Shown in pieces: positions 51,498 to 63,313 of a stretch of 64,000 nt of DNA. The position numbers and the translations under genes were made by a program. How positions within the stretch are numbered: position 1 is the stretch's first letter; every line of letters begins with the position of its first letter. Origin of the DNA: an uncultured Cryomorphaceae bacterium (lineage in GTDB: Bacteria; Bacteroidota; Bacteroidia; Flavobacteriales; Schleiferiaceae). Below the pieces are notes generated by a model. That model ran no database searches. It saw nothing but the letters and a program-made list of their open reading frames with translations, and was not told where the DNA came from. The stretch covers positions 248,001-312,000 of the forward strand of contig CAKZJV010000007.1 of NCBI GenBank assembly GCA_937120475.1. Reading direction: 5' to 3'.

Positions 51498-52371
51498 TGA
51501 ATGATAGGTAACCCAAGCGGAACAAATCAAAAGTGTACAGTTGCGGATTAGGGCCGGTGAGTTTTTTCAACCAGGTTTTTTTACGGCTTTTGTAGAGACT
51601 ACGCATAATGCCCACCGTAGCGGTGCGCTCCAGCTTGATAAAACCTTGTAAAATACGCACTCCTTCCGCAAATTCAGGGTGTTGCTCCCGCAGCCACATC
51701 AGGTTTTTAAGCGCGTTTTTGGTTTTTTGAATAAACCGCTCGCTTTCTTCCAAACCATTGTGAACAAGCGTATTATCAATAGCCCGGAAAGGCACCTTCT
51801 GCGCTTTTAGCTGGTAGGCAAAAAAAGTATCTTCATGACCGTAGGTCTTCAGTTCTTCCTTGAAACGCACTTGTTGGAACACCGCGTGAGAACTGAAAAA
51901 ATTACTACTCCTGAAGGAGGTGTACGATTGTTCCTGGCGTTCAGCTGCCGTAGCAATTTCACGTTCGCGACCGTACATCCAATGCAACAGATATTGGTTC
52001 TCCGGTTTCTGCTCTTGGTAAGTATGACCTCCGCAAAGCACACCTTCACCGCGATTTTCCCAATACGTTTTTATAAAATCCGGTTTATCCATCAGCATAT
52101 CGCAATCCACAAAAAACAGATAATCACCGGCCGATTCATCCGCCATCAGGTTACGAATAGCGGCCCGCCCCAGGTTTTGGGGTAATTCACGGTACTGTAC
52201 TTCCGGTTCGTTTTTCAGGGAGCGGTTAGCGGTTAAAAAGTGCTCTTGTGAACCGTCATCGTAAAGGCGTACTTCAAAATGAAGATTGAGATCGCGGGCC
52301 TGTTTTAAAAGGCTTTGTACCAAACCGAAAACCTCTTCATTATAAACCGGTATGCACAGCGAAAGGTCCAT
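51481..52371 (-). CDS. Family 2 glycosyltransferase
   Basis: 296 residues, GT-A fold: LSLCIPVYNEEVFGLVQSLL (N-terminus), VRLYDDGSQEHFL (DDGS), NLGRAAIRNLMADESAGDYLFFVDCDMLMDKPDF (metal-binding D-C-D), and KTYGHEDTFFAYQLKAQ (the H-E-D catalytic-base region). No membrane helix, so likely cytoplasmic. Probably one operon with ftsE, whose stop is 5 nt upstream. Acceptor and donor sugars unknown. Confidence 0.87.
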   Translation of the reverse strand: MDLSLCIPVYNEEVFGLVQSLLKQARDLNLHFEVRLYDDGSQEHFLTANRSLKNEPEVQYRELPQNLGRAAIRNLMADESAGDYLFFVDCDMLMDKPDFIKTYWENRGEGVLCGGHTYQEQKPENQYLLHWMYGREREIATAAERQEQSYTSFRSSNFFSSHAVFQQVRFKEELKTYGHEDTFFAYQLKAQKVPFRAIDNTLVHNGLEESERFIQKTKNALKNLMWLREQHPEFAEGVRILQGFIKLERTATVGIMRSLYKSRKKTWLKKLTGPNPQLYTFDLFRLGYLSFISSTS

Positions 52372-52376
52372 AGTAA

Positions 52377-53063
52377 TTACAGGCTCTTCTGTACAGTGGA
52401 AAACACTTTTCCATCGTCACACTTAAGCGTTTCGTGCGGAAACTTTAGGATAATCGAATAATCATGGGTTGCCATTAAAATGGCTCTTTGGTTCCTGGAA
52501 ATTTCCTCCAACAGCATCATAATTTCTTCGGAGGTTCCGGGGTCGAGGTTACCGGTAGGTTCATCGGCCAGTATCAGCTCCGGATCGTTGAGCAGGGCGC
52601 GGGCAATGGCCACCCTTTGTTGTTCGCCACCGGAAAGTTGGTACGGCATTTTAAACCCTTTGGTAGCCATACCTACCTTTTCCAGTACCTCGTTAATTTT
52701 GGCCTCCATTTTCTTTTTGTCCTTCCAGCCGGTGGCTTTCAATACAAACAGGAGGTTGTCTGATACGCTACGGTCCGTAAGCAACTGAAAATCCTGGAAA
52801 ACAATGCCCATTTTCCTGCGTAAAAAAGGGATTTCCTTTTCCTTTAACTGATGCAGTTTAAAACCACATACCTCACCTTCGCCATTTTTGAGTGGAAGGT
52901 CACCGTACAGGGTTTTCAATAAACTGGTTTTTCCACTACCCGTAGCTCCGATAAGGTAACGGAAGTCACCGGAATTCAGGGTAAGGTCCACCTCGGAAAG
53001 GATAAGGTGGTCATTCTGGAAAATATTAGCGTCCTGTATATGTATAATAGGTGTACTGCTCAT
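52377..53063 (-). CDS. ftsE: FtsE-like ABC ATPase of the cell-division complex
   Basis: 228 residues. FtsE pairs with FtsX to control peptidoglycan hydrolases at the septum. Walker [17 protein letters not shown] (about 39-54), Q-loop [18 protein letters not shown] (the Q-D-F-x-L-L motif is typical of FtsE), signature [15 protein letters not shown], Walker [15 protein letters not shown]-loop ATHDY. ftsX is not adjacent, which is common in Bacteroidota. Alternative: LolD-type ATPase, less likely given the QDFQLL motif. Promoter box at 53089-53096. Confidence 0.85.
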
Positions 53064-53088
53064 GCCGGAAATAGCGGAAATTTTGCTT

Positions 53089-53096
53089 CAAATCTA
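53089..53096 (-). promoter_or_regulatory. -7 box for ftsE
   Basis: Minus-strand TAGATTTG, exact TAnnTTTG. Predicted start near 53082, leader about 19 nt before the ATG at 53063. Confidence 0.5.
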
Positions 53097-53243
53097 CGGG
53101 AATTATGAGATACCCCTTTCTTTAATTTTCTAAACCTTGCCCTCAATAATAATCAACAGTATCCGTTTGAAAAAACAATCGGGAAACGAAACCACCGCTG
53201 AGGGAAACCCCTACTTTTAAACATCTATTTGAAACTGAGAAGT

Positions 53244-56200
53244 ATGCCTGGCAAACGCTTGAGGCTGACGGCTTTATTAGCCACGGTCGGTCTGGTTTTT
53301 TCAATACACGCGCAACCTGAACAAGTTCTTACCGGAACGGAAGACCCCTACGAGGAAGGCTTAAACCTGTACAACAAGGGGCAGTACGGGCATTCCCAAA
53401 GGCTTTTGGATAAAGTGGCCGATGATATTTACAATCGCACCCGCGAAACCCGGGCCTCTGCAGAATATTATGCAGCCCTCTCGGCTATGAAGTTGTACAA
53501 TGGCGATGCACGTGAGCGGGTAGAGGCCTTTGCCGAAACTTATGAGCTGAGCCCTTTGCGCAATTCGCTTTTCCTGGCCTATGCCAATTACCGTTTTAGC
53601 ACTAAACAATATCGCGAGGCGGCTGCCTGGTATGATAAGGTGGATAAGTTTCGCCTCAGTGGTGATGCCCTGAATGAGTATCTATTTAAAAAAGGGTACG
53701 CTCACCTTAGCATGGAGGAAAACAAGGAAGCACAGAAAATATTCTTCGAATTGAAGGATAAAAACTCTTCCTATGCCAATTCCGCCAAATACTACTACGC
53801 ACACCTGCTGTATGCCGATAGTAATTATACCGAGGCCCTCACCAACTTTTTACCCCTGCAGAACGATGACTCTTTCGGGCCGTTGGTGCCGTATTACCTC
53901 GCCCATATTTATTACCGCCTGGGTGATTACGACAAACTGTTAGAGGTAGGTAAGGACCTGGTGGAAAAAGCCACGCCTACCCGTGCCCCTGAAATTGCCA
54001 AGCTTATGGCCGATGCCTTTTACAACAAAGGGCAGTACGAGGATGCCATCGAGTACCTGGAGTTGTATAAGGATAAAGGTGGCCGCATGCGTACGCAGGA
54101 TCATTTTCAGTTGGGGTACAGCTATTACCGCAACGGAAAATACCGTTTGGCCATTGAGTCGTTCAACAAAATTTCAGGCGGAGCGGAAGCCCTGCAACAG
54201 AGTGCTTATTACCATTTAGGAGATTGCTACCTGAAAGTGGGTGAAAAACAACAAGCCATTACCGCTTTTAAAGCCGCTTCTGAAATAAACGCTTCGCCTA
54301 CCGTGCAGGAAGATGCGTATTTCAATTATGGCAAACTGGTTTACGAGCTTTCCGATCCCTACCGCGATGCCATTTCGGTGTTGAACGATTTCCTGGAATA
54401 TTTCCCCGAATCGCCCCGCGTAAAGGAAGTGAACCGCTACCTGGCCAACCTTTACGTTACCACCAAGGATTATGACAAGGCCATGCTGGCGATTCAAAGA
54501 ACCGGCCTTAATACCCCTGAAATGCAGGAGGTGTATCAAAAAGTAGCTTTTTACCGCGCTACCGAAATCTTCAATTCACTAAAGTATCAACAGGCTATTG
54601 AAAAATACCGGGAATCACTGCAATACCCCATTAACAAACCCATTGTAGCCCTGAGCAGGTACTGGATTGCCGAAGCCCACTATCGCCTGGAAGAATACGA
54701 TGAAGCGCTACAGGGTTTTGAAGCCTTCCGCAACAGCACAGGAGCTTTTAATATGACGGAATACAACCGCTCCTTATACCAAACCGGTTACACCTATTAC
54801 AAACTTTTCGATTTTCAGAAAGCCGCTAACGCCTTTCGGAGTTTTACCCGTGATGCGAATGCCAAAGACGTACGTCTGCCCGATGCTTACCTGCGCCTGG
54901 GCGATTGCTACCTGTTAACCGGTGGTTACCTGGTAGCGTCTGACTTTTACAGCTCGGCCTTAAAAACCGGTACGCGCGAAGCTGATTATGCCAGCTTTCA
55001 GAGAGCGGAGTGCCTGGGGCTGGCCGGTAAAAAAGAACAAAAGGTGGCGGAGTTGCAAAACCTGTTGAAGAAATACCCCAACAGTATTTATGCGGAAGAG
55101 GCGCAGTACGAAATTGCCGTTACTCAATTGCAGATGGAGAATTACGATAAGGCTATTAACGGTTTTAACCGCTTTATTGCCGATCATCCACAATCTGAAA
55201 AGATACCGGCCGCCAAAATGCAGATTGGCCTGGTGTATAGCAATACCGATCGCAATGCCGAGGCACTTACGGCCTTTAAAGGCGTGGTGAAGGATTATCC
55301 CGGAACGGACGAATCTATTGAAGCCATTGGGCTGGCCAGGCTTATTTACGCCCGTCAAAATCGCATTAACGATTACCTGGATTGGGTGGATGGCCTCAAT
55401 TTTGTAAACTTTGAACGCTCCACTTTGGATAGTACCTCCTTTAACGCAGCCTTCGATGTATATTCAACCGGTGACTGCAATGAGGCGGTAAAAGCCCTGA
55501 GCAATTATTTAAACCGTTTTGAGAAGGGCATTTTTGCATTGCGAGCCAATTATTACCTGGCCGAATGCGCCAATAAAGTCAATAACCTAAGCCAGGCCCG
55601 CGAAGCTTACCAGGCTATACTGGAGTTTCCCCGGAATGAATATACGGCTGTGGCCCTTGAAAATGTGGCGGGCATGACCTATCGCGCCAAGGAGTACGCC
55701 AAGGCGCGCAATTACTACAAACAACTGGCCGATATGGCCCAGGAAAAAAGCAAACGGATACAGGCCCATACCGGCATTATGCGTAGCAGCTTTGCGCTGG
55801 GCGATTACAAGGAGGCCGCGATACACGCCAACCTGGTACTGGGTATGGAGGTACAGGAAGCGGCCCTGGTGCTGGAGGCACGTCAAATTGCAGCCGAATC
55901 CTACTACCAAAGCGGTGACCTCGATCAGGCACTGAGCCGTTACGAAGAGATCGCTAACACCTCCGAAGGGGAGGCCAAGGCCAAAGCCCTGTATTACCAG
56001 GCGGATATCCTCCATCAAAAGCAGCAGTATGAAAACTCTACTACTGTGGTATATAAGCTCATTGAAGATCTTCCTTCCTTCAAGGAATACAAGATGAAAG
56101 CCCTGCTCATACTGGCCAGAAATTTCTGGAAACAGGAAGACATCTTCCAGGCCAATTACACCCTCGATTTTGTGATCAGCAATGATTACAGTCTTGCTAT

Positions 56201-56387
56201 TACTGAGCAGGCGCGTAACCTTAAAGGGGAGATTAAACTTTCTGAAAAGCGGGCAGCCGAGCAACAGGCGGAGATCAATCGCAGCAAAAGTGATCCCATC
56301 ATACTCAATGAGGGCGAGGGGCTGATGCTCATCGATCAGGCGGAGGAAACCGTGGAACCCTTGGACACCAATTTAAGAAACGAATAA
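53244..56387 (+). CDS. Giant periplasmic TPR protein
   Basis: 1047 residues. Signal peptide MPGKRLRLTALLATVGLVFSIHAQ; the rest is a continuous superhelix of about 25 tetratricopeptide repeats (for example YYLAHIYYRLGDYDKLLEVGKDLV, AKLMADAFYNKGQYEDAIEYLELY, YEIAVTQLQMENYDKAINGFNRF). Repeats near 600-700 carry outer-membrane-assembly-like spacing (YPNSIYAEEAQYEIA and HPQSEKIPAAKMQIG), similar to BamD/YbgF-type TPRs. The frame is open 5 codons upstream from a TTG, rejected in favour of the ATG at 53244. The stop is 1 nt before the beta-barrel gene, so the two are coupled. Function unknown. Confidence 0.87.
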   Translation: MPGKRLRLTALLATVGLVFSIHAQPEQVLTGTEDPYEEGLNLYNKGQYGHSQRLLDKVADDIYNRTRETRASAEYYAALSAMKLYNGDARERVEAFAETYELSPLRNSLFLAYANYRFSTKQYREAAAWYDKVDKFRLSGDALNEYLFKKGYAHLSMEENKEAQKIFFELKDKNSSYANSAKYYYAHLLYADSNYTEALTNFLPLQNDDSFGPLVPYYLAHIYYRLGDYDKLLEVGKDLVEKATPTRAPEIAKLMADAFYNKGQYEDAIEYLELYKDKGGRMRTQDHFQLGYSYYRNGKYRLAIESFNKISGGAEALQQSAYYHLGDCYLKVGEKQQAITAFKAASEINASPTVQEDAYFNYGKLVYELSDPYRDAISVLNDFLEYFPESPRVKEVNRYLANLYVTTKDYDKAMLAIQRTGLNTPEMQEVYQKVAFYRATEIFNSLKYQQAIEKYRESLQYPINKPIVALSRYWIAEAHYRLEEYDEALQGFEAFRNSTGAFNMTEYNRSLYQTGYTYYKLFDFQKAANAFRSFTRDANAKDVRLPDAYLRLGDCYLLTGGYLVASDFYSSALKTGTREADYASFQRAECLGLAGKKEQKVAELQNLLKKYPNSIYAEEAQYEIAVTQLQMENYDKAINGFNRFIADHPQSEKIPAAKMQIGLVYSNTDRNAEALTAFKGVVKDYPGTDESIEAIGLARLIYARQNRINDYLDWVDGLNFVNFERSTLDSTSFNAAFDVYSTGDCNEAVKALSNYLNRFEKGIFALRANYYLAECANKVNNLSQAREAYQAILEFPRNEYTAVALENVAGMTYRAKEYAKARNYYKQLADMAQEKSKRIQAHTGIMRSSFALGDYKEAAIHANLVLGMEVQEAALVLEARQIAAESYYQSGDLDQALSRYEEIANTSEGEAKAKALYYQADILHQKQQYENSTTVVYKLIEDLPSFKEYKMKALLILARNFWKQEDIFQANYTLDFVISNDYSLAITEQARNLKGEIKLSEKRAAEQQAEINRSKSDPIILNEGEGLMLIDQAEETVEPLDTNLRNE

Positions 56388-56388
56388 A

Positions 56389-58086
56389 ATGAAATACTGG
56401 AGCGTAATAATTTTAGTTTGTGGATTGGGTACCGTTGCCCTGGCGCAGCCCGGTAACCTGGGGCAGTTGGAGCTGAAGGTGACCGATAAATACAAGGCCC
56501 GGGTAGCTGAGGCCAGCAAGGTGAGCGATTTCCCTGATTTTAAGGATACGACCACCAATAAAATACCGGTAAGCTACTCCATTGTAAGCCAGCCGATAGC
56601 GGTAAAGTTCAACCCCGACCCTATACAACCCGCACGAATTGCTAAAATTCCCGTAGAGGAGTTGTATAATGGTATGGTACGGGCCGGTGCCGGGCTGTAC
56701 AACAGCTTTTTAGGGGAGTTTTACTACAACAGTGGCCGCTCTTCCAAATACAGCTATGGGTTTTCCGGGGGGCACTTTTCCACCCAAGGCGGGGTTAAAA
56801 ACAATGTGTACGAAACCAATGGCATGAGCCGCAATTCCCTGGGTGCCTATTTCAACCGCTTTTACGATAAGCTTAGTTGGGAAACGCAGGCTTACAGCCG
56901 TTTTGACAAAGTGAGCTATTACGGTTTGGATGTGGTGGACCCTCTGCGCTTTGTGGGTGAGGAGGAAATACCGGAACCCGCAGCTAACTGGTACCGTCAG
57001 TTTGGGATACAGAGCAACCTGCTAAGCCCTGATGATAAGGCGATGGGGTGGACGCGCAAGTTGGGGATCGATTATTATTTTCTTGCCGATAATTACAATA
57101 CCACTGAAAATAATTTCAAGCTGCTGAGTTCCTACGCCATTCCGGCTAAAGACCAAACTATTGACTTGGATCTCAACCTGCAGTATTTCAATACGGTATA
57201 TGATTCGCTTTCGGATTTCGACCAGAGTTACTTTACCCTGCAGGCACGCCCCCATATTGAAACCTACGTGAAGGATTTCCTTTTCAAATTCGGACTGAAC
57301 CTTTACTACAACTCCTTATCCACCTCGCTGAACAACGAAGCCGATGGAGATATTTATTTCTTTCCCGAAGTAAAAGTGAGTTACCCGGTGGTAGAAGATG
57401 TGTTGAACATTTATACCGGTATTGAGGGGTATTTACAGCACAATACCGTGCGCTCATTGGTGGATGAAAACCCCTTTATAAACCCGGGAGAGTTTTTAAC
57501 GCCTACCCGAACCACCGATATTTACCTGGGAGTGAACGGTATTATAAGTTCCACCACCTCCTTTAACGTGAGCGGTGGTTTTAAAGATGCTAACGATATG
57601 GTACTGTACTACCGCAATCCTTTTTACGCTTTTGACAGTGTGGCTCCGGGCGTTTCAGTTCGGTACGATGATGCGGATATTTTTTACGCCAGCGGTGAAT
57701 TGGCGGTTAACTTAAAGGATAATCTGCAGCTCAACCTGGGAGGAACCTTGCAATCCTTTCAAATGAAAAATGAAAAGCGTGCGTGGCACCGCCCGGCCTT
57801 TACCGCTAAACTGGGAGCCGGATATACCATTAAGGAAAAGATACGTTTGCAAACCGATTTGATGTATGTAGGTCCCCGTACGGCCTTTAACCAGGATGAT
57901 AACCCTGAAATTGACAGCGATCTGCCGGGCTACCTCAATGCCAACCTGGGAGTGGAGTACCTTTACAACAGTAGGTTGTCGGCCTTTGTGAATGCCTACA
58001 ACCTACTGAACAATCCCTATGATTATTATTTAGGTTATACTGCACAAAGTATTAACGTGATGTTCGGCATCGGATACCAGTTTTAA
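56389..58086 (+). CDS. Outer-membrane beta-barrel protein, TonB-receptor-like without plug
   Basis: 565 residues. Signal peptide MKYWSVIILVCGLGTVALAQ, a soluble 85-residue linker, then strands alternating aromatic/hydrophobic and polar residues all the way to a C-terminal Phe (INVMFGIGYQF). Examples are LGEFYYNSGRSSKYSYGFSGGHF, TIDLDLNLQYFNTVY and DNLQLNLGGTLQSFQM. The end resembles TonB-dependent receptor barrels, but there is no plug domain, TonB box or carboxypeptidase-like domain. Directly follows the giant TPR gene (1-nt gap). A barrel-plus-TPR pair could form an envelope-spanning transport unit (inference). Confidence 0.82.
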   Translation: MKYWSVIILVCGLGTVALAQPGNLGQLELKVTDKYKARVAEASKVSDFPDFKDTTTNKIPVSYSIVSQPIAVKFNPDPIQPARIAKIPVEELYNGMVRAGAGLYNSFLGEFYYNSGRSSKYSYGFSGGHFSTQGGVKNNVYETNGMSRNSLGAYFNRFYDKLSWETQAYSRFDKVSYYGLDVVDPLRFVGEEEIPEPAANWYRQFGIQSNLLSPDDKAMGWTRKLGIDYYFLADNYNTTENNFKLLSSYAIPAKDQTIDLDLNLQYFNTVYDSLSDFDQSYFTLQARPHIETYVKDFLFKFGLNLYYNSLSTSLNNEADGDIYFFPEVKVSYPVVEDVLNIYTGIEGYLQHNTVRSLVDENPFINPGEFLTPTRTTDIYLGVNGIISSTTSFNVSGGFKDANDMVLYYRNPFYAFDSVAPGVSVRYDDADIFYASGELAVNLKDNLQLNLGGTLQSFQMKNEKRAWHRPAFTAKLGAGYTIKEKIRLQTDLMYVGPRTAFNQDDNPEIDSDLPGYLNANLGVEYLYNSRLSAFVNAYNLLNNPYDYYLGYTAQSINVMFGIGYQF

Positions 58087-58087
58087 G

Positions 58088-58501
58088 ATGAGTGAAACTT
58101 CTAAAATAGAATACGAGGGTGCCCTGCGCACCAAAGCGGTCCATTTGGGATCGGGGCGGGATTTAATTACCGATGCCCCGGTGGATAATAACGGTAAGGG
58201 AGAAGCTTTTTCGCCCACTGACCTGGTGGCAACCGCCCTGGGGAGCTGTATGCTTACCGTGATGGGTATTAAAGCGCGTTCCATGGGTTTTGACCTGGAA
58301 GAAGCCACCGTATCCATCACCAAAGTAATGGCGGCTGCACCCAGGCGCATTTCAGAAATTAAGGTGCATATTCGCCTGAAGCAGAATTGTGACGGGCCCA
58401 CCAGGCAGGTACTGGAAGAAACGGCCCGGCATTGCCCGGTAGCCAAAAGCCTGCATCCCGATTTGCAACAGAACCTCACCTTTGAATGGGTGACCGATTA
58501 A
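58088..58501 (+). CDS. OsmC family peroxiredoxin-like protein
   Basis: 137 residues, cytoplasmic thiol-dependent (hydro)peroxidase family. GEAFSPTDLVATALGSCMLTVMGIKARSMG (about 36-65) carries the first cysteine and HCPVAKSLHPDL (about 116-127) the second. These two cysteines are the redox pair of OsmC/Ohr enzymes. Glutamate and arginine of the active site are not all assignable. Gene follows the barrel gene by 1 nt, probably as a downstream passenger of the same transcript. Confidence 0.9.
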   Translation: MSETSKIEYEGALRTKAVHLGSGRDLITDAPVDNNGKGEAFSPTDLVATALGSCMLTVMGIKARSMGFDLEEATVSITKVMAAAPRRISEIKVHIRLKQNCDGPTRQVLEETARHCPVAKSLHPDLQQNLTFEWVTD

Positions 58502-58530
58502 TCTATCTTAGTCGCCAAATTTAGCGAGTC

Positions 58531-59373
58531 ATGTTCTCCAATAACGATATAGCGGAGTATTACGATACCACCCAAAACCATTATGAAAAATGGTGGGACT
58601 TAAAAAAACACCATTCCCTGCATTACGGTATTTGGGATGAAAAGGCCCGTAGCTTTGGCGAAGCCCTGGAGAATACCAACCTCCAGCTTTTACAGGCCGC
58701 GGGTATTACAGCTTCCGATGTAGTTTTAGATGCAGGTTGTGGAGTAGGAGGAGCGGCCCTTTTTGTTAATCGTACGGCAGGGGCCAGGGTTACCGGTATT
58801 TCACTGAGTGATAAGCAGGTAGAGCAGGCCAATGCCATAGCTGCTGAAAAGGGGGTATCGGAAAAAGTGCAATTCAAAACCATGGATTTTACCAGCACTT
58901 CTTTCCCCGATGAATCTTTTGATGTGGTTTGGGCTTGTGAAAGCGTGTGCCACGCCTCTGAAAAAGCTGATTTTATACGCGAAAGTTACCGGTTGCTGCG
59001 CAAGGGTGGGCGGTTGGTGTTGTTCGATTTCTTTTTGACGGAAAGAGGTGTGGAAGATCGTAACCGCTGGATTGACAAGTGGAAACGCACCTGGGCGGTA
59101 CCTGACTTTGTCACTAAGGAATACTTTATGGATAAGGTGCGCGAAAGTGGATTCAGCACCGTGGAAAACCGGGATTACACACCTAACATTCGCAAAAGTG
59201 CCAGGCGTATGTTATACGGCTCTATGCTGGGTGTTATTTTCTCAGAAGGTTACGCTTTGCTGCACCCTAATGTTTCGCGCTTTGCCCGCGATCACTACAA
59301 ATGTGGGTATTACCAGTACCGTGCCCTTCGGCAGGATTTATGGAGATATCAGCTTATTAAAGCGGTAAAATAA
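58531..59373 (+). CDS. SAM-dependent methyltransferase, UbiE/tocopherol-MT-like
   Basis: 280 residues, class I methyltransferase. Motif I VVLDAGCGVGGAALFVN (about 66-82), post-I VTGISLSDKQVEQANAIA, motif II region FDVVWACESVCHASEKADFI, motif III LLRKGGRLVLFDFFLTE. The N-terminal EYYDTTQNHYEKWWDLKKHHSLHYGIWD is characteristic of the gamma-tocopherol/sterol C-methyltransferase-like group, which act on lipids and isoprenoids. Natural substrate unknown. Followed after 7 nt by a small secreted protein. Confidence 0.85.
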   Translation: MFSNNDIAEYYDTTQNHYEKWWDLKKHHSLHYGIWDEKARSFGEALENTNLQLLQAAGITASDVVLDAGCGVGGAALFVNRTAGARVTGISLSDKQVEQANAIAAEKGVSEKVQFKTMDFTSTSFPDESFDVVWACESVCHASEKADFIRESYRLLRKGGRLVLFDFFLTERGVEDRNRWIDKWKRTWAVPDFVTKEYFMDKVRESGFSTVENRDYTPNIRKSARRMLYGSMLGVIFSEGYALLHPNVSRFARDHYKCGYYQYRALRQDLWRYQLIKAVK

Positions 59374-59380
59374 AAGACTC

Positions 59381-59896
59381 TTGAAACGATATATTTTTCT
59401 TTTTTTGCTGATGAGTGCTGTGGCGTATGCACAGGAAGAAACAGCGGCCGTTCCCCACGAGGAAAGTCTGATGAACTACGCTCGAAAATACGCTGAAGCT
59501 ACCGAAAAACGGGACTGGAATAAGGTGATCGATCAAACCTATGCACCCCTGGTAAAGCTGAACGGAGGTGCACCAACCCTTTTACGCCAGGCCAAACTTT
59601 CCGATCAAAACCTGGAACAGCAGGATTTTGAATTGCAGAAGGTAGAACTGTCGGCTCCCTTGCGGGAGTTGGAAGTGGGTGAGTATCTCCTGGCCATCAT
59701 ACCAATACGTCTCACTTTCAAGGGGCCTTTGGGCCGCTTGTTTTCAGAGTCCAGCATTTTAGGGGTTTCGGATAACGATGGTCAAAGCTGGAGTTTTATT
59801 TCCATGGCGCAAGCCGATATGAATCAATTGATCGAACTCTTCCCCGAATTGCCGAAAGACTTTGTGGTGCCGCGGAAGCGGGTGTATCAGGAGTAA
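59381..59896 (+). CDS. Small secreted protein, NTF2/SnoaL-like
   Basis: 171 residues: signal peptide KRYIFLFLLMSAVAYAQ from a TTG start at 59381, then a single domain (MNYARKYAEATEKRDWNKVIDQTYAPLVKLNGGAPTLLRQ ... YLLAIIPIRLTFKGPLGRLF ... SWSFISMAQADMNQLIELFPEL). The pattern of an N-terminal helical pair followed by curved strands resembles the NTF2-like fold, but I cannot confirm this by eye. The segment WSFISMAQADMNQLIELFPEL also occurs in Bacteroidota proteins of unknown role. The palindromic repeat at 59901 follows the stop by 4 nt and may act as terminator. Confidence 0.6.
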   Translation: MKRYIFLFLLMSAVAYAQEETAAVPHEESLMNYARKYAEATEKRDWNKVIDQTYAPLVKLNGGAPTLLRQAKLSDQNLEQQDFELQKVELSAPLRELEVGEYLLAIIPIRLTFKGPLGRLFSESSILGVSDNDGQSWSFISMAQADMNQLIELFPELPKDFVVPRKRVYQE

Positions 59897-59900
59897 GAGG

Positions 59901-59930
59901 GATAATAAAGCGTAGCGGATGCTACGCTTT
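59901..59930 (+). repeat. REP-like palindromic repeat, copy A
   Basis: Head GATAAT (59901-59906), then AAAGCGTAGC (59907-59916), loop GGAT, GCTACGCTTT (59921-59930): a perfect 10-bp stem. The first 27 nt match copy C (61563-61589) except two C/T changes, and copy B (60808-60834, minus) is the same unit inverted. It sits 4 nt after a stop codon and may double as a terminator for the gene ending at 59896. Confidence 0.8.
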
Positions 59931-60028
59931 GATGAGGGCTTGGTTTCTTTGTAAGATTCACTAACGTCTGAATAGCCAGACTATATATACCTAATAATCT
60001 TTAAAAGCTTTTCTTATAAAGTTGAATA

Positions 60029-60682
60029 TCACTTTAAGATAGTAACAGTAGTTGTATCGCCTCCCGTTATTTTTACTTGTCCACTTGAGTAATGGGGATC
60101 ACTGGCAAAATAAAAAGTGGAATTACTGGCCTCGTATAAATAAATACCAATTGCTAAATCATAATAATAACTAGTTTGCCCAGCATCCACAACAATTTGA
60201 TTATCTGAATCATAATTTAAATCGGATTGTTTCTTAATATGGAAGTACCTGGAATAACTTGCACTATTTACAACTTTTAGCACTCCAAAGGGACTAGAAT
60301 TATTATCAATGCCGTTTCCGAAACAATTTATTTCATTAACCCCATTGTCGTTATCTGCCTCTACAGTCAGCGAGCCATTATAATTCTTTTCAGAGGTTGG
60401 TGAGAATACAACAGTCACATCAACAGAATTTCCGGGTTTTATGGTTCCACCATAGCTGGAAGAAAACCCATTTGGATTGGTAATTCCTGAAACAGTGAGA
60501 TCGGATAATCCAATATTAGAAATTGTTAGAGTTCTTGTTGCTGACTGATTAACTTCTATATTTCCAAAATTGAGATCACCACTTAAAGAAATGGTTGATT
60601 CACTTAGAATTTCCTCAAAAAAATCATCTTCTGTACATGAAGAGATTAGGATTAGGATAGATAAAATAAAAGTCTTTTTCAT
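60029..60682 (-). CDS. AT-rich lipoprotein with choice-of-anchor/DUF1573-like Ig domain
   Basis: 217 residues: MKKTFILSILILISSCTEDD is a lipoprotein signal (Cys16). It is followed by an Ig-like ASPM/SPD-2/Hydin-type module (LNFGNIEVNQSATRTLTISNIGLSDLTVSGIT ... IKPGNSVDVTVVFSPTSEKNYNGSLTVEAD, about 38-115), as in choice-of-anchor D or DUF1573 proteins, and a C-terminal serine/tyrosine/asparagine-rich part with no recognised family. Codon use and base composition are clearly more AT-rich than neighbours, so recent transfer is likely. It lies between repeat copies A and B. Function unknown. Confidence 0.75.
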   Translation of the reverse strand: MKKTFILSILILISSCTEDDFFEEILSESTISLSGDLNFGNIEVNQSATRTLTISNIGLSDLTVSGITNPNGFSSSYGGTIKPGNSVDVTVVFSPTSEKNYNGSLTVEADNDNGVNEINCFGNGIDNNSSPFGVLKVVNSASYSRYFHIKKQSDLNYDSDNQIVVDAGQTSYYYDLAIGIYLYEASNSTFYFASDPHYSSGQVKITGGDTTTVTILK

Positions 60683-60739
60683 AGGTTTGAGTTTTGATAT
60701 TCTGTTTAGTTTAGAAACAATTACTTAATTGGTGAACAT

Positions 60740-60747
60740 CAAAAATA
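60740..60747 (-). promoter_or_regulatory. -7 box for the AT-rich lipoprotein
   Basis: Minus-strand TATTTTTG, exact TAnnTTTG. Start near 60733, leader about 50 nt to the ATG at 60682. In AT-rich DNA chance matches are more likely, so confidence is modest. Confidence 0.4.
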
Positions 60748-60807
60748 ACTAAAACAACTTAATGAAGTTATTAGGCTATATATTTTATCCGAAACAATCA
60801 CCACTAA

Positions 60808-60834
60808 GCGTAGCGTCCGCTACGCTTTCATATC
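60808..60834 (-). repeat. REP-like palindromic repeat, copy B (inverted)
   Basis: Read on the minus strand: GATATG head, AAAGCGTAGC, loop GGAC, GCTACGC. The stem extends to 9 bp (60806-60814 / 60819-60827). It is the same unit as copies A and C but opposite in direction. It lies 150 nt beyond the 3' end of the transposase gene. The rest of the 302-nt gap 60683-60984 shows the lipoprotein promoter box and nothing else I can support. Confidence 0.8.
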
Positions 60835-60984
60835 CTTGCTGTTTTACAGTTTTTCAGCGGCCTACTTTATTGTGTTGCCTCAATGTAGAACGGTAAACTT
60901 TGTACACAACAGTTTATTGGTTGCTTTTGAACACAGGGTAAAGCAATTCTTCACTCGCCATGCTTTCCTATCCCGGTGGGCTAT

Positions 60985-61530
60985 TTATATTTTCTCAATC
61001 GCCAACAGGCCCGGTAAGTCTGCATAATTACGGGCGCTGCTATATACATAGTCTATAGCTTCGTCCACCCAGCCGGCTTTAACCGGGTTTTCATGAATGT
61101 AATTTAAGCGGGAATCAAGCATTTCAGCATTGGTCAATTCCACAGCATGATTATTATGGGTCCAGAGTTGCTGGCTTGCAACGCGTTTATTAAACTTAGC
61201 ATGGTAATGAAATACCAGCTTCATCCAATCTTTCCGACTTTCCACCGGGTTGTTTTCTATTTCTTTTAGAATTTGTTGGGATGTAAAGCTCTTAAAATCC
61301 CGTATAGCATCTGATAAGTTACCAGTTGCACTCCTTACGATTAGGTGCATGTGATTGGTCATTAGTACATATGCATACACTAGCAAGCCCTTATTTTTTA
61401 TGCAATACTGTAAACTTTCAATAATCATATCGCGGTATGTTTTCCGGCTGAAAACGTCAACCCAGCCTACCACTTGGAAGGTAAGAAAGTAGGTAGCGTT
61501 TTGATCTTTGATTTGATAACTATTGCTCAT
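60985..61530 (-). CDS. REP-associated tyrosine transposase (Y1/HUH family, RAYT)
   Basis: 181 residues. The TnpA_REP family of single-strand-specific HUH endonucleases nicks at REP hairpins using one tyrosine. Visible: YFLTFQVVGWVDVFSRKTYRD (first strand), the metal-binding HMH in VLMTNHMHLIVRS (His60/His62), and YIHENPVKAGWVDEAIDYVYSSARNY at the C-terminus, where the Y-I-x-x-N-P-V-x-A-G block contains the likely nucleophile (about Tyr144). The length agrees with RAYTs (about 165-190), and the protein is intact. It is domesticated-like: no paired IS200-type ends and only one copy in the window. Flanked by copies B and C. Confidence 0.92.
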   Translation of the reverse strand: MSNSYQIKDQNATYFLTFQVVGWVDVFSRKTYRDMIIESLQYCIKNKGLLVYAYVLMTNHMHLIVRSATGNLSDAIRDFKSFTSQQILKEIENNPVESRKDWMKLVFHYHAKFNKRVASQQLWTHNNHAVELTNAEMLDSRLNYIHENPVKAGWVDEAIDYVYSSARNYADLPGLLAIEKI

Positions 61531-61538
61531 GCTTTGGC

Positions 61539-61570
61539 TAAAGATAGCGAAGCGAGGAGATTGATAACAA
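61539..61570 (-). promoter_or_regulatory. Predicted promoter of the RAYT gene, overlapping REP copy C
   Basis: Minus-strand TATCTTTA (61546-61539, one mismatch to TAnnTTTG) with TTG (61570-61568) at 21-nt spacing. The TTG lies within repeat copy C. The start would fall 1-5 nt before the ATG at 61530, again nearly leaderless. Confidence 0.45.
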
Positions 61571-61589
61571 AGCGTAGCGGACGCTACGC
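61563..61589 (+). repeat. REP-like palindromic repeat, copy C
   Basis: GATAAC head (61563-61568), AAAGCGTAGC, loop GGAC (61579-61582), GCTACGC. Stem 7 bp (61572-61578 / 61583-61589); the outer A-T pairs seen in copies A and B are lost. Same unit as copies A and B, inverted relative to B. Confidence 0.8.
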
Positions 61590-61682
61590 CTAGATTGGGT
61601 TTATTACAGGGGATATTAGGCGTAAGGTTAAGTTTTCGGTCTATTTAGGCTAGGGAATACTGCGGATAGATTCCAAACGCAC

Positions 61683-62462
61683 TTAGGCATATGGAATAAC
61701 TTTTAAAATATGATCGATAGCCGCAAGGCGTGCATCCGGTTTTTTATTGGCATCAATAATTTTCCAGGAGGCATGCGCGGTATCGGTTGCTTTAAACATC
61801 TTTTCTTTATAGGCCGTGTATTCATCCCATAGTTCCTGCGCTTTCTCATCTACCGCAGTCATTTTCCAGCGTTTTAGCGGACTGCTTTTAATATCTTCAA
61901 AGCGCCTGGCCTGCTCTGCTTTAGTAATGGAAAAATAAAACTTGATCAGGAAGGTATCCGACTGGGTAAGCATTCGCTCAAAATCATTGACCTGGCTCAT
62001 GAACCTTTCATATTCCTCCTGGGTACAAAATCCGTTTACCGGTTCTACTACGGCCCGGTTGTACCAACTGCGGTCAAAAAGTACGATCTCACCCGGTTTG
62101 GGAAGTTGTTTAATATAGCGCTGGAAAAACCACTGCCTGCGCTCGTCTGGGGTGGGAATATTCAGGGCAACAATCCGGTAGTGCCGGGGATTGATGTGTT
62201 CGGTTATCCGTCTTATAGCTCCTCCCTTGCCGGCAGCATCACGGCCTTCAAAAATTACCACCACCTTTTTATCCCCGGCAATTACCCATTCCTGCAGTTT
62301 GATAAGCTCTTCCTGTTTGGTCTTCAGTTCCCGGGCATAATGGGCCTCTTCAATAGCCCGGTTAAAGTTGAGCTTTTTATTGCTCAATAGGGTCTTCAAA
62401 CCCACTTTAGAATTGATCAGCTTCAGTTCTTCTTCTGAAAGAAAGGGTTCTTGATTTTGCAT
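61683..62462 (-). CDS. ppk2: Polyphosphate kinase 2 family protein (PPK2), copy 1
   Basis: Transfers phosphate between polyphosphate and nucleoside di- or monophosphates. 259 residues from the ATG at 62462: VVIFEGRDAAGKGGAIRRITEHINPRHYR (Walker A GRDAAGKGG), IVLFDRSWYNRAVVEPVNGFCTQEEYE (Walker B and lid), FLIKFYFSITKAEQARRFEDIKSSPLKRWKMTAVD. All are hallmark PPK2 motifs. A TTG 6 nt upstream is also in frame and would give a 4-nt overlap. It lies directly downstream of a second PPK2 gene. Confidence 0.93.
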   Translation of the reverse strand: MQNQEPFLSEEELKLINSKVGLKTLLSNKKLNFNRAIEEAHYARELKTKQEELIKLQEWVIAGDKKVVVIFEGRDAAGKGGAIRRITEHINPRHYRIVALNIPTPDERRQWFFQRYIKQLPKPGEIVLFDRSWYNRAVVEPVNGFCTQEEYERFMSQVNDFERMLTQSDTFLIKFYFSITKAEQARRFEDIKSSPLKRWKMTAVDEKAQELWDEYTAYKEKMFKATDTAHASWKIIDANKKPDARLAAIDHILKVIPYA

Positions 62463-62464
62463 TT

Positions 62465-63313
62465 TCAAATATCAATTTGCAGGGTGCTACGGTGGTAGCG
62501 CATTACTATGTTCGGATCGGGAAACAGGGAAATACCCGCATCTCCCTTGCCCGCATAATCAAACTGTGAAAGTACGTGCCGTATGCTTTCCAGCCGTGCC
62601 TCGTTTTTATCATTGGCTTTCACAATAGTCCACGGGCAAAAGTTAGTATGGGTTTTGCTGAACATCTGCTCCTTATAGTGGGTGTAGTCGCTCCATAGTT
62701 CCTGGCCTTTCTGATCTACAGAGCTGAACTTCCACTTTTTAAGCGGATTCCGCAGACGTGCATCGAAGCGTTTTTGCTGTTCTTGTTTGGAAATACTAAA
62801 CCAGAATTTTATGATCTTGAGATTGTCCTCATACAAAAGGTGTTCAAATTCAGGTACCTGCATCATAAATTTATCATACTGCTCCTTAGTACAAAAACCC
62901 ATCACCGGTTCCACCACCGCCCGGTTATACCAGCTACGGTCAAAAAACACGATCTCCCCGGGATTGGGCAACATCTTAAGGTAACGCCTGAAATACCATT
63001 GTCCGCGCTCTACCTCGGTGGGTTTGGTAAGTGCTACCACCCGTGATGTACGCGGGTTGAGGTGCTCCTTAAACCTTTTGATGCAACCCCCTTTACCGGC
63101 CGCATCACGCCCTTCAAAAAGGATGGCCACCCGCATTTTATTTTCAGATACCCATTTTTGAAAGCTTACAAACTCCGCCTGTAACTTCCTTAATTCAATT
63201 TCATATTTTATTTTCCTGAGTGCCTTTTCTATGGGAATATTTTCTTTTCTGGCCCGGGCGATTAATTCATCGCGGGTTTTTATATCACTCAGATGCTCAG
63301 CGGTAAAAGACAT
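62465..63313 (-). CDS. ppk2: Polyphosphate kinase 2 family protein (PPK2), copy 2
   Basis: 282 residues, clearly paralogous to the downstream gene: VAILFEGRDAAGKGGCIKRFKEHLNPRTSRVVALTKPTEVERGQWYFRRYLKMLPNPGEIVFFDRSWYNRAVVEPVMGFCTKEQYDKFM. It carries the same Walker A (GRDAAGKGG), Walker B and lid. Differences lie in the N-terminal region (IPIEKALRKIKYEIELRKLQAEFVSFQKWVSE) and at the C-terminus (AGKGDAGISLFPDPNIVMRYHRSTLQIDI). Preceded by an RDD gene at 8 nt. Which subclass (ADP-, GDP- or AMP-preferring) cannot be decided by eye. Confidence 0.93.
   Translation of the reverse strand: MSFTAEHLSDIKTRDELIARARKENIPIEKALRKIKYEIELRKLQAEFVSFQKWVSENKMRVAILFEGRDAAGKGGCIKRFKEHLNPRTSRVVALTKPTEVERGQWYFRRYLKMLPNPGEIVFFDRSWYNRAVVEPVMGFCTKEQYDKFMMQVPEFEHLLYEDNLKIIKFWFSISKQEQQKRFDARLRNPLKKWKFSSVDQKGQELWSDYTHYKEQMFSKTHTNFCPWTIVKANDKNEARLESIRHVLSQFDYAGKGDAGISLFPDPNIVMRYHRSTLQIDI

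Follow-up and report, generated by a model that had tools for sequence, protein, structure and literature searches.

The REP-associated tyrosine transposase (RAYT) of the window, i.e., the whole stretch of 64,000 nucleotides analysed here from an uncultured Cryomorphaceae bacterium, together with the hairpin repeats surrounding it, very probably constitutes a low-copy REPtron of TnpA-REP subclass 2.6, in which a tamed RAYT would bind its unit as a single-stranded hairpin and rarely copy units. A sequence-only reading of the window had proposed a REP/RAYT system with an intact RAYT lying between inverted copies of one repeat, and both points are borne out by the protein family scores and HuH/Tyr motifs, by the complementarity of the repeat arms and by the dispersal of a directional unit. 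The features of the locus are collected in Table 1.

Table 1. Features of the RAYT locus (window coordinates).
Feature	Position	Strand	Description
Upstream gene	59381-59896	+	171 aa; bounds the locus on the left in either species
REP unit 1	59900-59936	+	GGATAAT-A-AAGCGTAGC-GGAT-GCTACGCTT-TGATGAG; 49.4 bits (model R1)
Choice-of-anchor D / HYDIN-like Ig domain gene	60029-60682	-	217 aa; between units 1 and 2
REP unit 2	60799-60835	-	52.8 bits; inverted with respect to units 1 and 3
RAYT gene	60985-61530	-	181 aa intact ORF, flanked by units 2 and 3
REP unit 3	61562-61598	+	50.5 bits; 5' of the RAYT start

Unit 1 begins 3 nt past the stop of the upstream gene, whose product matched nothing in Pfam (pN 0.200 and pS 0.72 against the sister species). 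The arm pairs 60804/61563 and 59900/60806 are inverted, 30-31 nt long and 90% complementary; the copy at 59900, previously described as a third and direct one, is indeed direct to that at 61562 but inverted to that at 60799. Allowing at most one mismatch, AAAGCGTAGC matched the window 11 times against 3.3 expected, a number attained by none of 100 shuffles, and when folded as single-stranded DNA the three units gave z values of -7.2, -3.9 and -2.8 (0, 0 and 1 of 200 shuffles equalled them). The search of positions 59300-62000 against Rfam returned zero matches. The choice-of-anchor D protein scored 58.2 bits with NCBIfam NF012200 and matched Pfam PF22544, while two adjacent genes adjoining unit 3 (61683-63313), 51% identical to each other, are presumably polyphosphate-kinase-2-like (PPK2).

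The RAYT scored 99.4 bits with the NCBIfam model NF047646 REP_Tyr_transpos (cut-off 80) and 33.5 bits with Pfam Y1_Tnp (cut-off 23), and carries the HuH motif as NHMH and the tyrosine motif as YIHENP, H60/H62 and Y144 being invariant in an alignment of 12 sequences. The best solved relative of the profile made from these 12 sequences was E. coli TnpA-REP (4er8, E 4.3e-9), but where the E. coli protein contacts GTAG, the aligned residues of the RAYT are not conserved, in agreement with a unit that has no GTAG foot. With the IS200 equivalog NF033573 the protein reached 22 bits, far under the cut-off of 55. The genome of origin (G000; 3.65 Mb in 9 contigs) holds the gene as a single copy, besides one paralog at 42% identity, and the sister genome (G001) holds an ortholog at 77% identity in the same place. 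Between the two orthologs pN was 0.113 and pS 0.80, with synonymous sites saturated, and the neighbouring methyltransferase gave similar values (0.124 and 0.73). By this shared position and the pN/pS values, the RAYT is a tamed, vertically inherited gene under purifying selection, an old resident rather than a passing insertion sequence, and the self-contained element of the sequence-only reading, a term suggestive of a mobile IS-like unit, is not supported.

The repeat is a directional unit of the form (G)ATA-NNN-stem-loop-stem-AG. A strict set of 35 copies, 13 from G000 and 22 from G001, was retained out of 43 model matches, leaving out two opposite-strand readings, three members of a related GTAGTT family and three weak or partial matches (L154 483, 1583 and 6968). 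The ATA head and the AG tail were each kept in 33 of the 35 copies; the first proportion is partly circular, as the model was trained on head-bearing units, and in the unbiased seed set of 20 units chosen by the stem alone ATA was found in 17 and GATA in 15, so that the conserved head is real, as is its spacer of three. Across the 35 copies the information content was 0.9 bits for the G and 1.6-1.8 bits for each of A, T and A, dropped to 0.12-0.27 bits in the three free spacer positions after ATA, and stayed mostly below 0.3 bits in the flanks (one column at 0.53). AG is followed by a G-rich tail. The stem showed compensatory changes at pair 9 (C-G to T-A in 7 copies), pair 2 (A-T to G-C in 3) and pair 3 (G-C to T-A in 1). 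The directional head outside the palindrome, already pointed out from the sequence, therefore stands, whereas its two-base spacer (GATANN) does not, three free bases separating GATA from the stem AAGCG, and the proposed loop GGAY holds with its 4 nt for the three local copies but not for most of the others, in which the loop has 5 nt. The foot of the unit is TCT/ACT on one strand and, on the opposite one, ATA-NNN, and in none of the 35 copies does GTAG stand at the hairpin foot on either side. A GTAG does occur inside the stem but, being paired, was discarded as a guide. GATA was set aside as a 5' guide of the GTAG kind, since three free bases separate it from the stem and the foot common to related loci is a CT on the other strand.

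How many copies are found depends on the loop. A strict pattern with a 4-nt loop recovered the three local copies and two looser ones, and to conclude from that search that the unit occurs nowhere else would have been wrong: the pattern misses dispersed copies because their loop is mostly 5 nt long, and these were recovered by allowing loops of 2-7 nt and by a covariance model built from 20 units. The relaxed pattern was found at 5 places in G000 and 14 in G001 and at none in the remaining 86 of 88 genomes of the family; the covariance model (E <= 0.01) gave 13 distinct places in G000; in G001 it gave 25 rows, including two of the GTAGTT family. The G001 figure of at least 22 strict units is a minimum, given that this assembly is split into 40 contigs, the ends of which hold some of the units. 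In 12 other genomes the model returned nothing even at E <= 0.5, with 150 of the 471-1310 candidates per genome scored, so that these zeros are not absolute. With the genus represented by three genomes, the unit was found only in the two searched genomes with an orthologous RAYT (2 of 88 by exact pattern, 2 of 14 by model). The sequence-only reading had anticipated hundreds of intergenic copies, inverted pairs among them and absence from relatives without the RAYT: the unit is indeed dispersed and was not found in the searched relatives lacking an orthologous RAYT, but its copies in this genome stop at 13 places, and close inverted pairs are scarce (L161 8514/8569 is an example) and form the exception among dispersed copies. 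Neither of the two outcomes named in that reading as refuting it was observed.

The copies lie mostly near gene 3' ends and favour one orientation. Three of the 35 lie inside a mechanically called ORF of at least 85 aa. A gene 3' end is found no more than 200 nt away from 27 of them, which face it with the tail in 22 cases and with the head in 5, leaving 8 without one; outside the RAYT loci the tail faces the 3' end in 17 cases and the head in 2 (p 0.0007), and in five units the distance to a stop codon is exactly 5 nt. The adjoining genes encode, among others, KwaB-like, TPR, TraB/PrgY and beta-lactamase-family proteins. At L180:647-1597 of the sister genome, a unit lies 5 nt past the stop codon of a KwaB-like gene (Kiwa defence family). 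Such a preference for gene ends is what ordinary intrinsic terminators or look-alike 3'-end hairpins would show, and of three terminator-like sites in the region, two do overlap units, on the minus strand and with a weakly terminator-like character. Those three sites are nevertheless no excess over the 2.1 expected from shuffles, the copies have in common 38 nt of sequence in which a conserved ATA lies past a free spacer, a feature unnecessary for a terminator, and the units are missing from the searched relatives without the RAYT. We therefore regard terminators as a very unlikely explanation of the repeat, although the units may act secondarily as 3'-end hairpins. An autonomous insertion sequence of the IS200/IS605 type, with hairpin ends and moving as one element, is likewise very unlikely. 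A Y1 HuH transposase within inverted hairpins is what that family displays, but the equivalog score is low, there is one copy of the RAYT per genome, the gene is syntenic in the sister and under purifying selection, and the units are dispersed without it.

A third reading does not replace the spread of single units but adds to it an exchange of the DNA between inverted units, with unit-gene-unit cassettes gained and lost. Window positions 52024-59929 align to the sister genome at 76.7% and homology stops at 59929, inside unit 1; it restarts at 60803, inside unit 2, and the segment 60984-61594, with the RAYT and unit 3, aligns at 75.3% and has its end within unit 3, at 61594. The window gene enclosed by units 1 and 2 is the choice-of-anchor D gene, which has no ortholog in the sister genome (weak partial matches within other proteins of G001 and G002 were seen at E 4.5e-5 and 1.1e-6); in the same place the sister carries an unrelated RES-like gene (L157:11741-12586; 21.2 bits, under the Pfam cut-off of 23.2) that was absent from five other genomes in which it was sought. 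To the right of unit 3 the first PPK2 gene finds a match of only 33% in the sister, which has instead a 143-nt repeat of the end of the upstream gene with a unit, a GNAT gene and another unit. Away from the locus, an M23 peptidase gene beside a dispersed unit is unmatched in G001 and G002, and at the sister units L070 and L052 synteny is lost at or before the unit. The breaks were nonetheless counted only at comparable sites, the same picture would result from ordinary recombination between short repeats or from units inserting where the sequence already varied, and the upstream gene beside unit 1 is conserved. The comparison for an empty site yielded none with clean joints: G001 and G002 contain no relative of the chosen gene, and at L070 and L052 synteny is lost at or before the unit. 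Repeat-bounded gene turnover at the locus is thus suggested, not demonstrated, by these alignments, and an exchange of whole cassettes seems to us a rather unlikely addition to the low-copy REPtron. In the sister genome, similar ORF segments are repeated beside units at L155:6802-7853 and in L154, as if genes and units were copied jointly.

The main features of the window system recur beside related RAYTs in the phylum. Genome contigs were scanned with the RAYT alignment, taking the best 80 of 336 relatives plus 12 loci of the own family, 92 in all; judging by their titles, the best 80 are nearly all Bacteroidota, with one titled Aggregatibacter segnis. Inverted flanks above those of shuffles were found at 77 of the 92 loci, and 66 had a hairpin on both sides (L104 left out). 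We compared near-RAYT hairpins with a 10-bp arm and a 3-nt loop, read towards the RAYT from either side, with control hairpins of the same loci at distances above 1.5 kb. The loop started with T in 63 of 78 near-RAYT hairpins against 10 of 35 controls (p 1.5e-7), and a CT foot was present in 41 of 78 against 2 of 35 (p 6.6e-7), while the opposite strand of the same near-RAYT hairpins had a loop T in 24 and a CT foot in 9; a less strict comparison gave CT exactly at the foot in 46/139 vs. 33/466. Behind the stem TAT peaked at +3 (14 of 78; 1-4 at other offsets), which is suggestive only, the difference from the controls (2 of 35) being not significant (p 0.14). The strict layout (exact CT foot, 3-nt loop with T, arm of 8-12) occurred on at least one side of 29 of 91 loci and on both sides of 8, as compared to 4 control loci, and it is therefore a tendency of the class and not a rule. 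By eye, most copies of the closest relatives (L015, L081 and L074) read CT-10 bp-TGC-10 bp-NNN-TAT, and many related stems seem to have a G-T mismatch at the fourth pair. A simple rule of pairing between foot and TAT, comparable to the one proposed for GTAG and CT in PMC8266576, did not predict the base changes when these were compared by eye.

Units are specific to their RAYT. In 17 of 70 RAYT loci, 44 further copies of the own unit were present at distances above 700 nt, and none was found when units were sought in other loci, over 1.96 Mb (this control used one unit per locus and the test up to two). Similarity between units was weakly correlated with similarity between RAYTs (Spearman 0.11; 11 of 2000 permutations as high), and the three pairs of near-identical RAYTs (at least 80% identity) also have near-identical units. 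Five loci, mostly from Mucilaginibacter (L093, L096, L111, L116 and L148), show two successive hairpins, the block being repeated on both sides of the RAYT. The record titled Aggregatibacter segnis (L127) carries a RAYT of Bacteroidota type without inverted flanks, either a transfer or a mislabelled contig.

Low copy number recurs among the repeat families of these genomes. The second RAYT of G000 (C7:1629978-1630628, L002), the 42% paralog, is flanked by a different and perfect 29-nt inverted pair, and its unit occurs at 6 places in that genome, one of them 46 nt from a unit of the window type. The GTAGTT family was found at 6 places in the Algoriphagus genome G088, at 8 distinct places in G089 and at 6 in G001; G000 has 5 such places with 2-3 mismatches (C7:2729163-2732284 and 3000128) and no RAYT of the GTAGTT type, the cognate RAYT being found in the sister genome. 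These decayed copies are possibly relics left after the loss of their RAYT.

Concerning the mechanism of the low-copy REPtron, the substrate bound by RAYTs is a single-stranded hairpin whose foot is unpaired, cleavage taking place at an adjacent CT, and the IS608 and ISDra2 enzymes touch a T of the loop (PMC8266576, and general knowledge of Y1 HuH enzymes). Since CT foot and loop T stand on the same strand, complementary to the one given in the sequence-only reading, we infer that the strand CT-(10-bp stem)-T..-(10-bp stem)-NNN-TATC, folded into a single-stranded hairpin, is most likely the one to which the RAYT binds. The joining or cutting site would then be TATC (GATA on the complementary strand), three bases past the hairpin, and the enzyme would cut and rejoin the DNA next to the conserved ends. 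The RAYT would thereby be the agent spreading the copies, with single units seldom copied to new places and mostly right after stop codons; in that position they may have an additional effect on mRNA ends, and the system might be of benefit to the cell. A wider generalization, that Bacteroidota RAYTs use a code of CT foot and loop T on the bound strand, with a TATC joining site three free bases past the hairpin, in place of GTAG, and that inverted units bracket swapped genes in the genus, making the RAYT locus a small gene-swapping site, we put forward as a tentative and rather unlikely proposal. The resolved unit, with its two ends, free spacer and low copy number, could serve directly as substrate when cutting is first assayed in this class, and the CT foot, loop T and 10-bp stem, being common to many related loci, can be tested by mutation. 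Should units indeed bound genes that are exchanged, gene turnover would be a process in which a tamed transposase plays a visible part.

The groups into which RAYTs are divided were reportedly defined in a 2017 paper. Subclass 2.6 of TnpA-REP, which the table of PMC6006769 equates with Bertels group 5, comprises Bacteroidetes RAYTs of about 179 aa with a median HuH-Tyr distance of 82, the motifs NH[LIV]H, WQ and YIH[QN]NP, and atypical flanking structures that lack GT[AG]G and are also present as copies at other genomic places (PMC6006769). The window RAYT resembles it in length, HuH-Tyr distance (84), an SS motif in the tail and its Bacteroidota relatives, as do the flanking units without GTAG foot in having copies elsewhere, at 13 places in the genome. 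It departs slightly from the published consensus in three motifs, with NHMH, WT and YIHENP against NHLH/NHVH, WR/WQ and YIHQNP in the aligned relatives. The literature consulted describes Bacteroidota RAYT repeats only as "atypical", found by manual inspection, while the window unit is resolved in both ends, fixed free spacer, copy number and restriction. As to the suggestion that the cognate set may be undescribed, Bacteroidota RAYTs with odd flanks already form a subclass (PMC6006769); neither this unit nor the layout shared by related loci was found described in the literature searched, with the supplementary repeat table of PMC6006769 outside its scope. The system belongs to a known kind, and it may also offer a general description of the repeats of that kind.

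Canonical GTAG REPs have a hairpin whose 5' foot is an unpaired GT[AG]G and occur in more than 100 copies per genome (PMC2817692 for the copy number); the window unit is not one of them, differing in both foot and number. With the TnpA-REP/BIME system of E. coli (group 2; 4er8) it shares a related Y1 HuH protein and hairpin units that surround a single-copy gene and are dispersed mostly between genes, but it lacks the GTAG foot, its RAYT lacks the residues contacting GTAG, and it counts about a dozen copies against the hundreds that are reported for E. coli. Bacteroidetes are listed with CGTC, not GTAG, repeats in PMC3733652, which also describes TIRtrons (TIRYT); these resemble the window system in having a RAYT-like gene within non-GTAG inverted repeats and moderate repeat families, but have long terminal inverted repeats and belong to other phyla, whereas the window repeat is a short hairpin unit. 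Finally, Y1 HuH chemistry is expected, and hairpin recognition and a T in the loop recur, as in the IS200/IS605 elements IS608 and ISDra2, from which the window RAYT differs in having no autonomous copies and a gene fixed in its place.
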